A stretch of 64,000 bases of DNA from Akkermansiaceae bacterium (GCA_029242935.1 JAQWSX010000176.1:1-64000); one strand, 5' to 3'. Counted from the first letter of the stretch, positions 55,701 to 64,000 are shown. Notes: generated from the sequence alone by a model not told the origin. A program made the numbers and translations.

Positions 55701-57401
55701 CTACTCGGCAGGTTTATCTTCCTTCGGCTTGGCCGGTTTCACCTCGATGGGCGGAGTAACGGCCTCAATCTTTTTGGGAGCTACGGGGGTAACTATCGTA
55801 AAGAGTTCGATATCGAACACCAACATTCCTGCAGGCTTACCGGGTTGATTATTATACGCGAGTTCAACGGGAATCCAGAATCGCCTCTTCTCACCTTCAA
55901 CCATCAATTGAACTCCTTCCGTCCAACCTTTGATCACTTGGTTTAAAGGGAATTGAGCCTGCTCATCTCGCTCGATCGAGTTATCGAAGAGTTTTCCGTC
56001 TGTAGTCCAGCCTGCATAGTGGACCTTAACGGTGTCGGTTGCTGTCGGTTTGCGCTTACCCGTTCCCGCTTTGAGAACCTTAGAGGCGAGTCCCGAAGCA
56101 GTTTTGGTTGCATCGGCTGGAGGTGCAGCCACATCCACTGGGGCCTTGGGGGCAATTGGCTTCGGTTTGAACTCAACCAACTCAAGGTCGAAAGTCAAAG
56201 CGCCTTCGGGAGCTCCACGTCCTTTGGTTTCGAAAGTAAGATTTTCAGGAATCCAGACACGGCGGCTCTCACCCTTTTTCATCATCTTTAAAATCTCCGC
56301 CCATCCTTTAATCGGCGATTGATCGAGAGAAAGGGCCATGGGACCACCCATCGTTTCACTGGAACCAATTGAAGCACCATTGGTATCCCAACCTTTAAAG
56401 TTCACCTTCAGGAGATCACCAACAGTTGGAGAAGCATCTCCTTCGCCAGACTTAATAATCGTATAGGCGATTCCAGATTCTGTCTTAGTGGAACCTTCAG
56501 GGGCAGCTGCCACATCTTTTGGCGCACTCGGATCCTTCGGTGGCGGTGGCGGCTTGGGAACCGACCGGAAATCAATCAACTCGAAGTCAAAAATCAAATC
56601 GCCCACAGGAGCACCGGCAGGCGCCTCTCCCTCTTTACCAAAGGCAAGATTCGCAGGAATCCAGAATCGGCGCTTTTCACCCTTTTTCATGAGCTGCAGA
56701 CCTTCGGTCCATCCCTTGATGTTTAGTTCGTTCAGCTTGAACTGAGAGGGCTGAGGATTACGGGTTGAGGTCGTCAGGAACTCCCCATCGGCCTTCCAAC
56801 CAGTAAACTGCGTGGTCACTACATCTTCAGGTCCCGGAGTCATCTCACCTTCACCGGCCTTCAGGATCTTGGATTTAAGACCCGACTCGGTTATTAGAGC
56901 ATCAGCCGGAGCAGTCAGTTCCTTGGGCGCTGCTGGGGGCTTGACGATTTCAAGCAGCTCCACGTCAAAAGTAAGATTACCAGCAACCCGTCCCTGGTCG
57001 CCATAGGCGAGGTCAGAAGGAATCCAGAATCGGCGCTTCTCACCAACTACCATCAGCTGCAGACCTTCCGTCCAACCCTTGATCACTCCGTTGAGAGCAA
57101 ACTCAGCGGGTTGTCCCCGCTGCAGCGAACTATCAAACATGGTGCCGTCGGAAGCCTGCCATCCGGTGTAGTGAACTTTCACGGTATCAGTCGCAGAAGG
57201 CTTCTCAGTCCCGGTCCCTTTCTTCAGAACCAACGAGGCCAATCCAGATTCTGTCTTTGCAGCTTCAGCGGGAGCGGCCGCCACGTTGGCAGGTGCCTTG
57301 AACTGATCCCCTGCCGGAGCTGCAGGATCTTGAGCAATCGCAGTGAAACCGAGAGCGCCACTTAGTAGACCGGAAATCAGCCGGCTTTTTCTATTAATCA
57401 T
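55701..57401 (-). CDS. Secreted protein with four tandem FKBP-type peptidyl-prolyl isomerase domains
   Basis: Four copies of the FKBP core: 'VKVHYTGW..FDSS..VIKGWTEGLQLM..LAYGDQG', 'VTTQFTGW..NIKGW..LAFGKEG', 'VNFKGW..PIKGW..LTFETKG', 'VKVHYAGW..FDNS..VIKGW..LAYNNQPG'. Start refined to M at 57401. Confidence 0.93.
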   Translation of the reverse strand: MINRKSRLISGLLSGALGFTAIAQDPAAPAGDQFKAPANVAAAPAEAAKTESGLASLVLKKGTGTEKPSATDTVKVHYTGWQASDGTMFDSSLQRGQPAEFALNGVIKGWTEGLQLMVVGEKRRFWIPSDLAYGDQGRVAGNLTFDVELLEIVKPPAAPKELTAPADALITESGLKSKILKAGEGEMTPGPEDVVTTQFTGWKADGEFLTTSTRNPQPSQFKLNELNIKGWTEGLQLMKKGEKRRFWIPANLAFGKEGEAPAGAPVGDLIFDFELIDFRSVPKPPPPPKDPSAPKDVAAAPEGSTKTESGIAYTIIKSGEGDASPTVGDLLKVNFKGWDTNGASIGSSETMGGPMALSLDQSPIKGWAEILKMMKKGESRRVWIPENLTFETKGRGAPEGALTFDLELVEFKPKPIAPKAPVDVAAPPADATKTASGLASKVLKAGTGKRKPTATDTVKVHYAGWTTDGKLFDNSIERDEQAQFPLNQVIKGWTEGVQLMVEGEKRRFWIPVELAYNNQPGKPAGMLVFDIELFTIVTPVAPKKIEAVTPPIEVKPAKPKEDKPAE

Positions 57402-57435: not shown

Positions 57436-58443
57436 TCAACGCCACATCTCACAAGAATGAGCCGCAAACCCCGCACCAAAACTAGTCAACCAGTAGCGAG
57501 AATCGTTTTCCGATTGCCTCAAACGCTCTTCCAAAGCAAAAAGAACGCAGGGACTGGAGCAATTTCCAGCATTTTTCAGGACCGCACGTGTTTCGGGTAA
57601 TTCCCATCCCATTCGCTTCTCGAGAGCCTCAATCACATCCCTTCCACCAGTATGCGCGAGCACTTGGTCCGGATCGCCCCGCCGCTTCTGCCAAAGTTTT
57701 TCAACTGCGTCTGCCGCCAATCCAGGGACCGCACGATGAAGTTTATTCTCCAATTTTCCACCGGAATTGATGAATCGGATTTTCTCCCTCTGCTCTGGAA
57801 CATGAATCGATTCAAATTTACCCACCTTCCACCTACCATCACCTTCTTCATCAGACCAGATAGCCGCTGAAGCACCATCGCCAAACAGGCACATACTGAT
57901 GAGAACGCCGGGTTCTTCATTCATAAAGAGAGCCGCCGAACAAACTTCGACTGCCACTGTCGCAACCTTTTTCCCGGGATTTGCAGCCAGAAACCCCTCG
58001 GCAGCTCGCATCATCGGAAGCGCTGCACCGCACCCCAAACCCACAATATCCTGAAGATAAACGTTATCTCTCATCCCCATATTCTCGGCCACATGACTCG
58101 TTATCCCCGGGCACAAATATCCGGTGCAAGTGCAGATTATAAGAGCGTCAATTTCGGACGGATCGACACCCGTTTTTTCGAGGGCCGCAATTGAAAGGGT
58201 TGGAGCTTCTTTCTCAAAATATTCATTGAGCTCCTGAGCCCCCACCTCGAACATCGCAGCTGGGCTATCAGTGCAGAAATGTCGTCGCGCAATCCCAGAG
58301 TCTCCTAGCAGCACCCTCTCCATAATCCCACGTCCACGTTTACTTAGCGATTGATAGGAAGAAGTCGTCCGCGTAAATTCAAAGCACTCTTTTTGAGTGT
58401 AAGTATTGGAAGGAAAGGCGCTCGCAAGAGCTTCAAGAAACAT
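57436..58443 (-). CDS. Type III polyketide synthase (chalcone/stilbene synthase superfamily)
   Basis: '[21 protein letters not shown]', active-site Cys '[20 protein letters not shown]', His '[14 protein letters not shown]', Asn '[18 protein letters not shown]'. Start refined to M at 58443. Confidence 0.9.
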
Positions 58444-61400
58444 GCTCCGAATCTCCCTTAGTTTGCAGATTTGCCAAAGGTTTATTTCTACCCGTGAGCA
58501 GATCAGTGGCCCGGTTACGAATATCTTCAAGAATCACATAGAGTGAAGGAACTAAGATGAGAGTGATCGCGGTCGCAAAGAGAATGCCAAAGCCAAGCGA
58601 AACAGCCATTGGAATGAGAAACTTTGCCTGCATATCATCTTCCAACAACATCGGCATGAGACCCACAAAAGTCGTAAGTGAAGTCAGAAGAATCGGCCGA
58701 AATCGCCTCACCCCGGCATTACGCGCGGCTTCCAAAACGCTCGTTCCACTTTTTCTATTACGGTTCACATAATCAACTAGCACCAAGGAATCATTCACCA
58801 CCACTCCAGCCAGCGCAACAATTCCACACATTGACATAATGCTCATATTTAGCCCCATAAAAATATGTCCCGCCACCGCGCCAACCATGCCAAATGGGAT
58901 CACGCTCATTACGATCAGAGGCTGCAGGTAGCTCTTTAGAGGAATTGCCATCAAAACATACATTAGCAAAAGAGCCCCCACAAAGCCGATCCCCATCTCA
59001 CGAATACTGTCGCGTTGATCGCTCTGCTCGCCCTTGAAGGAATACCGCACACCTGGAAATTTTCCTGAAATTTTTTCGAGCACTTCCTCAGTGTATTTTT
59101 CTACAATCTCATTCGCATTATAACCTCTGGCAAGATCGACATCTGCCTTGAGGCTGATCGTGCGAAAACGATCCACGCGAGTTACCGTAGCCGGCCCGCG
59201 ACCATATTCAGGAATCACGACATCAAGGAGTGACACCTCTTCGCCTTCTGGGGTTCTTAACTTCATCTTCTCAAAATTGGCTAGCGAATCCCGCTCAGAT
59301 TCGGGGTAGCGGACCATCACTTTCACCTCGTCACGACCCCGCTGCAGCCGCTGTACTTCGTTACCATAAAAGGCGTCGCGAACCTGATTCATCACCATGT
59401 TCAGGTCGAAACCTAAAGCCTTACCTCGTGGCGTCAGATCCCGGACGATTAACTCCTCCCGACCACGCCGGTCGGAATTTGAGACATCAACCACTCCTTT
59501 GTAATCATTACGCAAGCGCTCAGTCGCCCAAGTTGCCGCTGCTACCAATTGATCGTTATTCGGCCCAGTAAGATTGATATCGATGGCATTCCCACCCGCC
59601 GCCGTTTCTGCCCTGAACGCAAGCGAAACTACCTCTGGAATTTCACCAGCAAGTTCCTGCCACATCGATTTTAATTCTTCACTGGAGAGGTCGCGATTCT
59701 TTGCTGCCGCGAGTTCAAGGGTCACTTCCCCTAAATGGGTTCCAGTGGGTGTATTAGGTGAAAATCCACCCTGAAATGGCTGCATACCCGCCGTCGCCAG
59801 CTGATTGATAATAATAGAATCTCCATCTTTGTCCTGCGTTGTTTCGCCAAGCTTAAGGGCCGCCGCTTCCAATCGCTTCACCACTTTCTGGGTATTAGAA
59901 AATGGGGCCCCCAAAGGCATTTCAAGTTTTGCAGAGAGAATTTCGCCCTCCACTTTCGGAAAAAACTGGAAGGGTAACCAACCGGTTTTCACCAGCGATA
60001 CCGAGATGATTACGAGGGCAATAAACACAGTCCAAACCACATAGCGAAACTTCAAACATAACTTCAGAAACGGCGAATAAATGACCTTCACAAATCGCTC
60101 AAGTCCTCCCGAAATTCTCCGCTGCAAGCGAGTCAATGGATTAGCACTTGGAGTCGTGGAATGCGGCTTAAGAAGGGCAAGGTGAGCAGGCAGGACGAAC
60201 TTCGATTGCAACAAGGAAAAACCCAAAACCGGAATTACCACTAGGGGAATATTAGGCCAAATCTTTCCACTCACTCCACTCAAACCAAGCATGGGCGTAA
60301 ACGCCGCCATGGTCGTGAGAATCCCGAAAATCACTACAATTCCGACCTCGTGAGTCCCCTTCCAACTCGCTTCCTTAGGATGTTCACCTTGCTGAATACG
60401 GGTATAAACATTTTCACCAACCACAATGGCATCATCCACCACAATTCCCAAAACAAGAATAAAGGCGAAAGCGGAAATCATATTAATCGAAATCCCAAGA
60501 GCGGGCATCAACCAGAGACCACCAGCGAAGGAAACCGGAATTCCTAATGCCACCAAAAACGCTAAACTTGGCCGCAAGAAAAGTGCCAGTACGAAAAGAA
60601 CTAGAATGAGCCCTATCCCAATATTGCTTTTAAGGAGATCTAATCGGCCTTTCAAAATAACACTCTGGTCATTCCAAACGTCGATCCCCACACCCTCAGG
60701 CTTCTCCAGTGACTCCACGTATTCCCGGGCAAGTTTGGCAATCGCTAAAGTGTCCTGATCGGCTACACGGAAGACATGAAGCACGACTGCCGGGCGACCA
60801 TTGAAAGTAGACACAAGTTCAATATCTTCGAATCCATCGATCACTGAAGCAATCTGCCCCAACCTCAAATCGGATCCATCAGGCATCTTTTTGACAGTCA
60901 CTTCCCGAAACTCCTCGCCCCGGTATTTACGGCCCAGGGCCCTCACTACAATCTCGCCTGAGTCAGTTTTGACGGAGCCACTGGGAAGATCAAGCGAAGC
61001 GCCTCGAACGGCCATCGCCACTTGTTGCAACGTGAGATTGTATCGCCTAAGAGTAACCTCTGGAACTTCGATTGAAATTTCGTACGGTCGAACCGATGCC
61101 AACTCCACTTTCTTGATGGTCTCCCGCCCCTTGAGCAGGTTCTGCACGAACCCTCCAGGATCGGCAAGAAACGCCTTTTTCTTTGATTCCGGCCTAGGCG
61201 GGACATAGTTCAGCAAACCATCACGAATTCCTTCAGCATACTGGCGAAGGCTGCCCTCATCGGTATCAGCAGTGATCGCAAGACTAAGAATTTGCCGATT
61301 TACGACCAATTCTTCAAAGATCGGCTCCTCGGCTTTCTCGGCAAAGTTATCAATGGCATCAACGTTGGTTTGCACATCACCCATGACGTCACGGGTATTG

Positions 61401-61699
61401 TAACTGGTCTCGACCTCAATCGTCAGCGTGCCAATATTTCTTACAGCAGCCGAGGTCACCTGCTTAATGCCCTCAACCTCCGCGATCGCTTCCTCAATCG
61501 GAATAACCACTCCATTCATAACCTCCTCAGGAGTTGCATTGGGATAAGGAACACTCACAATGACTGCATCAAAGGACGTCTCCGGAAAGACCTCTTTTCG
61601 AAGCTGAAACCATGCCGTAAAACCGGCAATTAAGACAACCAGCATGAGAAAATTGGCCGCAACGTGATTGCCACTGAACCATTTGATCGACTTCTGCAT
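58433..61699 (-). CDS. RND-family efflux transporter permease (AcrB/AcrD/AcrF family)
   Basis: 1088 aa, '[34 protein letters not shown]', '[26 protein letters not shown]', '[24 protein letters not shown]'. Confidence 0.96.
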
Positions 61700-61703
61700 G
61701 ACT

Positions 61704-62864
61704 TTAGTTGGACTGATTGTTGTCCTCTTTTTTCTCGTCCGTTTTCTCCAACTGCAAAGTCATCCCCGGAATCGGCATATCGAACTTCGTAAGAATGACC
61801 TTCTCACCATCAGCAATTCCCTGAGTTGCAAAAACGTGGTCGGCAGTTTGCCGAGCCACCATTAATTCACGCAGCTCCAACTTATTCTCCCCGTTAAGCA
61901 CAAAGATCTGGTTCCGCCCACGAATAGCTGACCGGGGAACGCCAATCACTCCCGGCAAAACAGCCCCTTTCACGGTAGCATTGAGAAAGATCCCCGGCGA
62001 GGGCAGAACAAACCGATACGGATGATCGTTATTTGCAATAATTTTCGCTAGCACGAATGAGGAAAGGGTCTTTTGATCGACCGCCCCCAACTCCCACATC
62101 ATCTCAGCCTCCCACTCGTAAGACTTTCCTCCGATATCGGCAGAAAGAGTGACATCCGCTTTCTCTGGCAGCTGCGCGTAATCATCCAATGAAAATGGCA
62201 AGCGAATCATGAGATTATTAGGATCATAAATCGTTCCAAGCTGAGCTCCGGGAACCATTGTCGCTCCGAGATTCAAGTTCACCGACCGCACCCGACAATC
62301 GAAGGGAGCTACAATCTTTGTCCGGGCTAGGTCGGCTTCCGCCTTATCTCGCGCGGCGATTGCTGCCGCCACCCGCGCCTTTGCGCTTGTTAAGAAAGGA
62401 ATCCGCAACACAAGGTCACTCGCCGGTTTGTCTCCACCAATTTTTTTCCAATCGCGCTCCGCTTGCTGGGCCCGGGCTTCCTCTTGGATCAAAGCCAATT
62501 CTGCGTCTGCAAGAGTTGACTCCGCCTGCGCAACCGCAGCCTGATAGTCAATTGTATCAATCTCTGCAATGACATGCCCCTTCTTATAGGTCGCTCCAAT
62601 TTCAAAGTTATCATCCACGACCACAAGCCTCCCCCCGACTTGCGAGGAAAGAATAGTCTCCCGGCTCGCCACCACGATTCCTTCGCTTTCAAGAGGAAAC
62701 TCCAAATCACCCTTGCTGACCACTTCAACTTCGACGACAGGCGTTGCTTCCAACCTTTGCTTCTTCTCAGCTTCGGGAGCATTCGCCTCTAGGAGCTTAA
62801 CTCCAAAGATGGTCAATCCAACCACGGTGGCGATTGAGACGACGGTTGTAATAACAGTTTTCAT
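61704..62864 (-). CDS. RND efflux periplasmic adaptor (HlyD/MFP family)
   Basis: 'ETILSSQVGGRLVVVDDNFEIGATYKKGHVIAEIDTIDYQAAVAQAESTLADAEL', 'TKIVAPFDCRVRSVNLNLGATMVPGAQLGTIYD', 'VIGVPRSAIRG'. Confidence 0.95.
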   Translation of the reverse strand: MKTVITTVVSIATVVGLTIFGVKLLEANAPEAEKKQRLEATPVVEVEVVSKGDLEFPLESEGIVVASRETILSSQVGGRLVVVDDNFEIGATYKKGHVIAEIDTIDYQAAVAQAESTLADAELALIQEEARAQQAERDWKKIGGDKPASDLVLRIPFLTSAKARVAAAIAARDKAEADLARTKIVAPFDCRVRSVNLNLGATMVPGAQLGTIYDPNNLMIRLPFSLDDYAQLPEKADVTLSADIGGKSYEWEAEMMWELGAVDQKTLSSFVLAKIIANNDHPYRFVLPSPGIFLNATVKGAVLPGVIGVPRSAIRGRNQIFVLNGENKLELRELMVARQTADHVFATQGIADGEKVILTKFDMPIPGMTLQLEKTDEKKEDNNQSN

Positions 62865-62870
62865 AAAGAT

Positions 62871-64000
62871 TTATTTTTGAGAGCGGTAATCTCCACCAAG
62901 AGCGAGATGAAGGGTGATTCGATTATCGAGGCGAAGCCTCTTAAGGGTGGTTTTTTGGGAAGCCAGATTGATCCGAGCTCTCTGTGCTGTAATCAAGGTC
63001 AGGGAGTCGCCCACTCCACCTGAATACTCGCTGACCGCAGCAGCAGCAGCTTCCTCGGCAAACTTAAGGGCCTTGGTAATGGCCTGCTCCCGGGCCACAA
63101 AAAATTTCTCAGCCACTATCGCCTGCTCCACTTCGCCGAACGCTTTCAGAACCGTGCTCTGAAGCTTGGCAAGGTTCGAGCGATCATCTCCTTTGATCCT
63201 CGCATACTCTATTTGCAAGCTCCCACCACCCCAAATCGGCTGGGTCAGACCACCAGCAAGCGACCAGACTCCAAAATCAGAATTGAAAATCTTCCCCATT
63301 GCGTCAGTTGTCGTTCCAGCTCTGCCGGTAATGGCAAAGCTGGGGTAAGAAGCCCGCTTGGCCTGCTTTACAAGACTTCCGGTCGAGGCAAAACGGCGCT
63401 CCGCTTCGAGGATATCGGGACGACGTAGAAGTAACTCGGACGGCAACCCTGATGGTGGCATGGCCGGAACCTCGGGTAGTGATACCATGCCAAGCAACAC
63501 GCCTTTGGGATACCGCCCCAAAAGCAGCTCTAACTGTCTGACCGCTTGCTCTCGATCGCCTTTTCGCTGGGCAATTAATGCTTCATTAGTCGCAACCTCA
63601 CTTTCTGCCAATCTGACTTCGGCGGCAGATCCCCCCTCGGCGGCAAGAGCATTATTGAAACGATCAATTACGATATCTTTCATCGACAGGAGGAGTTCCT
63701 GCGTTTCCTTCGCTAACACAATTTGTTCACTCGCCTCGGCCAAGGCCAGCCAGGCTCTCATCACTTGAGCCGCGAGAGAGGCCCGCGCGGCGCGGTAGAC
63801 ATTTCCTTCGGCTTGAGCATCGGCCAAAAGAGCTGCTTGCCCCGCCCTCTGGAAACCCCAGATATCAGGCTCCCACGAAACCATCATATTGGATCCAAAA
63901 TTGCTAAAGTTGGCCGAAGGAATCCTTTCCGAGCTTTCAAGCGGAATTCCGATGAAGGCCTGTTTTTGACGGCTTGAAGCGAGGCCTGCCGAAATCTGAG
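62871..64000 (-). CDS. TolC/NodT-family outer-membrane factor (5' part beyond window end)
   Basis: 'WEPDIWGFQRAGQAALLADAQAEGNVYRAARASLAAQVMRAWLALAEA', 'GLPSELLLRRPDILEAERRFA', 'LHLALGGDYRSQK'; frame stays open to base 64000 (…QISAGLASSRQKQAFIGIPLESSERIPSANFSNFGSNMMVSWEPDIWG). Confidence 0.93.
   Translation of the reverse strand, partial: QISAGLASSRQKQAFIGIPLESSERIPSANFSNFGSNMMVSWEPDIWGFQRAGQAALLADAQAEGNVYRAARASLAAQVMRAWLALAEASEQIVLAKETQELLLSMKDIVIDRFNNALAAEGGSAAEVRLAESEVATNEALIAQRKGDREQAVRQLELLLGRYPKGVLLGMVSLPEVPAMPPSGLPSELLLRRPDILEAERRFASTGSLVKQAKRASYPSFAITGRAGTTTDAMGKIFNSDFGVWSLAGGLTQPIWGGGSLQIEYARIKGDDRSNLAKLQSTVLKAFGEVEQAIVAEKFFVAREQAITKALKFAEEAAAAAVSEYSGGVGDSLTLITAQRARINLASQKTTLKRLRLDNRITLHLALGGDYRSQK

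Follow-up and report, generated by a model that had tools for sequence, protein, structure and literature searches.

TetR-regulated tripartite efflux operons of the AcrAB/MexAB/MdtABC type bring together a TetR regulator, an outer-membrane factor (OMF), a periplasmic adaptor and a resistance-nodulation-division (RND) permease, with palindromic operators. Here we analyse a stretch of 64,000 nucleotides (the window) from an Akkermansiaceae bacterium (GCA_029242935.1, JAQWSX010000176.1:1-64000), in which the 3' end of such an operon is extended by a type III polyketide synthase (PKS) gene and an FKBP gene. For the PKS itself, the closest described systems are enzyme clusters. The hidABC (hierridin) operon of picocyanobacteria, as described in two later papers, encodes a methyltransferase, an oxidoreductase and a type III PKS (Costa et al. 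2019, via PMC8086630 and PMC10896814), and HidC has been proposed to take a C14 acyl-ACP (acyl carrier protein) starter and three malonyl-CoA (PMC8086630). In the mtr-fdo-t3pks operon of Planctomycetota, the triad PKS alone makes pentadecyl- and heptadecylresorcinols (C15/C17), while PKS, methyltransferase and oxidoreductase together yield a methylated alkylresorcinol; lone PKS genes without a neighbouring methyltransferase or flavin adenine dinucleotide (FAD)-dependent enzyme also occur in this phylum, and pump linkage was not described (Milke et al. 2024, PMC10896814). Our literature search for type III PKSs with RND efflux returned no precedent of an operon like the present one.

The three hidABC enzymes are the same as those considered below, the likeness being one of gene content and order: most Verrucomicrobiae triads read methyltransferase-FAD enzyme-PKS, and the planctomycete operon has the same content and order, with the PKS last. 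A wider spacing between PKS and FAD enzyme in other Verrucomicrobiae families would fit an arrangement resembling hidC>hidA>hidB. Unlike in these clusters, the PKS of the window genome is on a separate contig from the methyltransferase and FAD enzyme (hereafter the MT-FAD pair), inside a TetR-RND-FKBP operon. A further PKS-MT-FAD-ACP-ketosynthase cluster is found on the betaproteobacterial plasmid pSBC2-3 of Caballeronia sp. SBC2 (NZ_CP049319.1, L216:6001-10708), with a PKS 35% identical to that of the window; it differs from our locus in its extra ACP and ketosynthase genes, and the 13 kb examined there contain no RND pump. These additional genes hint at a dedicated acyl-ACP starter in Caballeronia.

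We consider it likely that the PKS belongs to a phenolic-lipid pathway of the hidABC kind, ordinary but for the relocation of this, its third enzyme. A methyltransferase-flavoenzyme-PKS triad proved widespread across Verrucomicrobiae, and this PKS is its third component. In a sample of 384 Verrucomicrobiae genomes, where PKS figures cover 145 of the 153 PKS genomes, PKS and flavoenzyme were both present in 139 among the matches listed, with six genomes having the PKS only, six the flavoenzyme only and 233 neither, an association whose test takes no account of phylogeny. Again among the matches listed, the two genes were at most 4 kb apart in 130 of the 139 co-occurring genomes, and a methyltransferase still adjoins the PKS in two of the PKS-only genomes. 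At 40 of 40 loci from outside the genus (tblastn), the flavoenzyme gene was next to the PKS on the same strand, mostly with the methyltransferase beyond it. None of these 40 loci had an RND gene in that place, and the PKS was found beside the pump only in the window's genus. A general functional pairing of PKS and RND pump therefore fails the refutation test that the first-pass annotation had itself set (neighbourhoods without RND genes) and is rejected on these out-of-genus neighbourhoods together with pump orthologues that lack a PKS; the link survives only at the level of the genus. Seven of nine close PKS homologues in a public genome collection retain full pump-operon synteny; the L008 homologue (69% identical) shows the methyltransferase-FAD enzyme-PKS order instead, and the L010 homologue has an FAD enzyme fragment immediately upstream.

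The window genome, whose nearest named relatives are Akkermansiaceae metagenome-assembled genomes (MAGs), contains the methyltransferase, the flavin oxidoreductase and the type III PKS, divided over two contigs (C59 with the PKS, C134 with the MT-FAD pair) rather than clustered as in hidABC. On C134, the MT-FAD pair sits between the divergent argB and ydcF genes, without a PKS. By Pfam, it consists of a methyltransferase-like protein (below cut-off) and a FAD_binding_3 flavoprotein, the latter with profile matches to PDB entries for flavin monooxygenases and for halogenases. The remark that no methyltransferase or oxidase follows the PKS is thus true locally, yet both are present elsewhere in the genome, which rules out a loss of the tailoring genes. 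Mining type III PKS operons by neighbours only would here miss the true tailoring enzymes and credit the pump.

Comparison within the genus covered 27 genomes, 26 of them with a PKS and none with two PKS genes. The order RND-PKS-FKBP occurs in 18 of the 26, with the MT-FAD pair at argB wherever this site was examined; the adjacency is thus conserved in these 18, absent from the other eight and found at 0 of the 40 out-of-genus loci. Seven of the eight unlinked genomes have intact triads: in four of the 27, MT-FAD-PKS-FKBP is at another place and the pump stands alone, and in three, MT-FAD-PKS is accompanied by an RND gene with FKBP directly after it. In the eighth (G488), PKS-FKBP lies away from the pump and the MT-FAD pair is at argB. 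No PKS was found in G486, which is 87% complete. A split MT-FAD pair is present in every same-genus genome without the triad, and the clustered triad, seen within the genus in the seven genomes just named, is the arrangement of almost all PKS-bearing Verrucomicrobiae outside it. Where RND directly precedes FKBP (three genomes), argB also directly precedes ydcF; both junctions look like emptied sites, and these genomes nest among pump-linked ones. In G484 (L178:3776-6333), the methyltransferase, FAD enzyme and argB genes are all broken by frameshifts. Since the frameshifts of this stretch also hit argB, a neighbouring housekeeping gene, we favour an assembly error over decay and do not claim pseudogenes; the same applies to the frameshift-broken PKS and RND genes of G494 (L159/L009).

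The PKS and FAD enzyme trees follow these arrangements. In the PKS tree, the pump-linked/split genomes form one clade (support 98/95), as they do in the FAD enzyme tree (98/92), where G488 and G486 are included; PKS type equals FAD type in all genomes where both are known. The RpoB, RND and FKBP trees, by contrast, mix the arrangements: in those of RpoB and RND, for example, the triad genomes G426, G421 and G442 group with the pump-linked G455 and G435, and in the RND and FKBP trees, the triad genomes G411 and G465 group with the pump-linked G404, G407, G475 and G480. In approximately unbiased (AU) tests, species groupings were rejected for the PKS (p = 7e-101 and 9e-12) and the FAD enzyme (p = 2e-4 and 0.007), whereas arrangement groupings were rejected for RpoB (p = 0.005 and 3e-4), RND (p = 1e-8 and 3e-6) and FKBP (p = 1e-57 and 2e-5). 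PKS and FAD trees thus agree by arrangement and conflict with those of RpoB, RND and FKBP, and we conclude that PKS and flavoenzyme travel as a matched set though unlinked. As they are matched despite being apart, there is good evidence that the PKS and the MT-FAD pair still act together. An old duplication with matched loss, or transfer with replacement, both fit the trees. The pump-linked PKS arrangement belongs to one group of uncultured Akkermansiaceae, in which the helper enzymes stayed at another genome site and are still matched. The genus thereby offers a natural experiment: closely related species carry the same pathway in clustered or split form, with PKS and tailoring genes inherited as a set against the species tree. 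Two questions become testable in this way, namely what keeps pathway genes at separate loci together, and whether a phenolic-lipid pathway can take in an RND pump.

Several points weigh against a relocated pathway enzyme. The AU groups for RpoB, RND and FKBP were chosen after the PKS and FAD trees had been seen. All genomes are drafts, many of them MAGs, and that of the window is a 3.16-Mb draft of 85.5% completeness and 4.5% contamination. The starter unit of the PKS is not readable from sequence, and orthology to alkylresorcinol synthases of known activity is judged from the content and order of genes together with fold and profile. Finally, the TetR operator motif described below was not found in the 16 kb surrounding the unlinked MT-FAD pair, and co-regulation of the two pathway halves is therefore unproven; a shared TetR operator at the MT-FAD locus was rejected on the same grounds.

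At the locus itself, the features are as follows (window positions unless marked as contig positions):

57436..58443, minus strand: type III PKS (P0001), 335 aa, ATG at 58443; from profile, fold and alignment
58433..58443, minus strand: end of the RND gene and start of the PKS gene, overlapping by 11 nt
58433..61699, minus strand: RND permease (AcrB/MdtB-like), 1088 aa; profile match
61704..62864, minus strand: periplasmic adaptor (RND_mfp), 386 aa; profile match
62871..64000, minus strand: OMF, NodT/TolC-like, cut by the window end; full length (470 aa) on the contig at 62871-64283
contig 64280-64918: TetR gene, 5' of the OMF gene and overlapping its start, beyond the window
contig 64914-64931 and 64947-64964: twin 18-bp palindromes upstream of TetR, beyond the window
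55701..57401, minus strand: four-domain FKBP-type peptidyl-prolyl isomerase with an N-terminal signal-like segment, 34 nt past the PKS stop

Open reading frame calls confirmed the four same-strand genes in the order OMF-adaptor-RND-PKS, gaps of 6 nt (OMF to adaptor) and 4 nt (adaptor to RND), and a PKS start codon inside the end of the RND gene; nearly all aligned homologues start at the same residue, which places the PKS start at the ATG at 58443. Pfam and NCBIfam matches (ACR_tran for the permease, RND_mfp for the adaptor, outer_NodT/OEP for the OMF) identify a contiguous, full-length tripartite RND efflux operon, with a permease score far under the cut-offs of named pumps. The first-pass annotation had regarded this efflux operon as complete. 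Its three pump components stand, but the unit is larger, the upstream TetR gene with its two operators and the four-domain FKBP gene downstream having been missed; the contig runs on to 70481, past the window end. An operon-strand promoter-like site was looked for at the RND/PKS junction and none was found, and terminator-like hits there were about as frequent as in shuffled sequence. Judged from sequence, the transcription unit is most simply TetR-OMF-adaptor-RND-PKS-FKBPx4, and the PKS is placed so that it could be co-expressed with the pump. The 11-nt overlap is kept in nine of ten genomes of the window's subclade.

Profile matches, predicted fold and catalytic residues all identify the protein as a type III PKS. 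It scores over the Pfam cut-offs for PF08392, PF00195 and PF02797 (FAE1_CUT1_RppA, Chal_sti_synt), and its AlphaFold model has a mean pLDDT (predicted local distance difference test) of 90.4. The catalytic residues highlighted earlier are present and invariant in 31 homologues:

58030..58032, minus strand: codon of catalytic Cys138 (GLGCGAA)
57652..57654, minus strand: codon of catalytic His264 (AHTGG)
57562..57564, minus strand: codon of catalytic Asn294 (NAGNCSS)

The loop SFGAGF had been singled out as a departure from the norm; FGAGF is invariant among the same 31 homologues and thus represents the family norm, not an oddity. A Cys-His-Asn triad is also found in KASIII (FabH), and the FabH profile gives a weak score of 45.6 bits, so that a primary-metabolism KASIII might be suspected. 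We regard this identity as highly improbable and reject it on profile scores and structural neighbours: the FabH score is far below its 292-bit cut-off and lower than those of the DpgA and type III PKS profiles, and the top 50 PDB chains in a Foldseek search with the model were all type III PKSs, the first being PKS11 of Mycobacterium tuberculosis. Besides, the gene tracks the MT-FAD pair and is not universal, being missing from a sampled genus of the same family (g2). DpgA itself (3,5-dihydroxyphenylacetyl-CoA synthase) was rejected at 113.6 bits against an NCBIfam cut-off of 425. In draft genome G000, no FabH above cut-off was found; on its contig C126 (9590-9712, L232), a FabH-like C-terminal stretch of 40 residues ends, in frame, a flavin-reductase-like reading frame near the contig end, possibly through misassembly.

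The resorcinol-type lipid proposed earlier is probably the PKS product. By analogy, the likeliest product is a long-chain alkylresorcinol that would afterwards be methylated and oxidised, such a product having been shown only for the planctomycete and cyanobacterial enzymes (PMC10896814, PMC8086630). Most likely, the PKS would form a 5-alkylresorcinol by condensing three malonyl-CoA with a long-chain acyl starter, and the class I methyltransferase and the FAD_binding_3-type flavoenzyme encoded on C134 would then methylate and oxidise the ring. Since the PKS gene follows the permease gene of a tripartite RND pump that is older and under TetR control, its transcription together with the pump is expected, and joint translation is probable; the PKS dosage would be tied to the TetR-RND operon, and the MT-FAD partners would be expressed separately. 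The chemistry, the co-transcription and lipid export by the pump are inferred, and export of the product is possible. This pathway model is compatible with either export (or protection) or hitch-hiking.

The history of the pump bears on this choice. The two palindromes TTYAAACANNNGTTTRAA upstream of TetR, with start positions 33 bp apart, are the sole perfect matches to their motif in the genome. At least one precedes the pump in every same-genus genome with the upstream region available, and both do so in most; weaker palindromes occur in one outgroup genus. They are present irrespective of PKS linkage, which indicates that the operator belongs to the pump and that the PKS joined later. Of 16 genera sampled from the family, 15 have RND orthologues, in most cases with the PKS elsewhere or absent, and the pump is therefore older than its link to the PKS. 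These observations, along with the eight same-genus genomes in which PKS and pump are unlinked, argue against a dedicated biosynthesis-export operon, in which the pump would export the PKS product or protect from it and TetR might sense it: the twin operators, being independent of the PKS, evolved for the pump alone. For such an operon speak the linkage kept in 18 genomes down to ~72% RND identity while genes past FKBP vary by subclade, the closing of the RND-PKS gap to an overlap in the window's subclade, and the placement of the PKS under a TetR twin-operator operon. On balance, we view a dedicated export operon as rather doubtful.

Neutral hitch-hiking, by which the PKS would have landed behind the RND gene by chance and uses its transcript without relation to efflux, comes closer to an even chance, although we still place it below one. 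Elsewhere, PKS function requires no pump neighbour; in three nested species the pump operon no longer contains the PKS and the triad is present instead; and in family f49, the PKS was separated independently from the MT-FAD pair and lies beside unrelated genes, not a pump. Chance placement sits less well with a TetR-OMF-adaptor-RND-PKS-FKBP block that, over the extent of the contigs, is intact in 18 of 18 linked genomes despite changed outer flanks, or with a junction tightened into an overlap. A bolder proposal, and one we deem improbable, is that the capture of a lipid PKS by the TetR-RND operon created a product-sensing make-and-export unit with unlinked tailoring enzymes, and that, in related species, the clustered arrangement and the split, pump-linked one have taken each other's place as co-adapted gene sets whose members lie at separate loci.

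The FKBP gene keeps its place 3' of the PKS in most same-genus genomes. Its four-domain form (window 55701-57401; L162, L165) comes directly after the PKS in genomes with the pump-linked order and in several with the triad, and some triad genomes have a second FKBP gene. The split in family f49 (G127, G203, G362, G377; L217-L220, L227-L229) is a second, independent one, with the MT-FAD pair on another contig; the lone PKS adjoins a large gene of ~940 aa that is GlnD-like by eye. No pump was found near the split-off PKS of this family, and convergent pump capture in other families was rejected accordingly. In an unrelated family, a single genome (G035, L038) encodes an RND-like permease (26% identity, ~435 aa) just downstream of its triad PKS and on the same strand.

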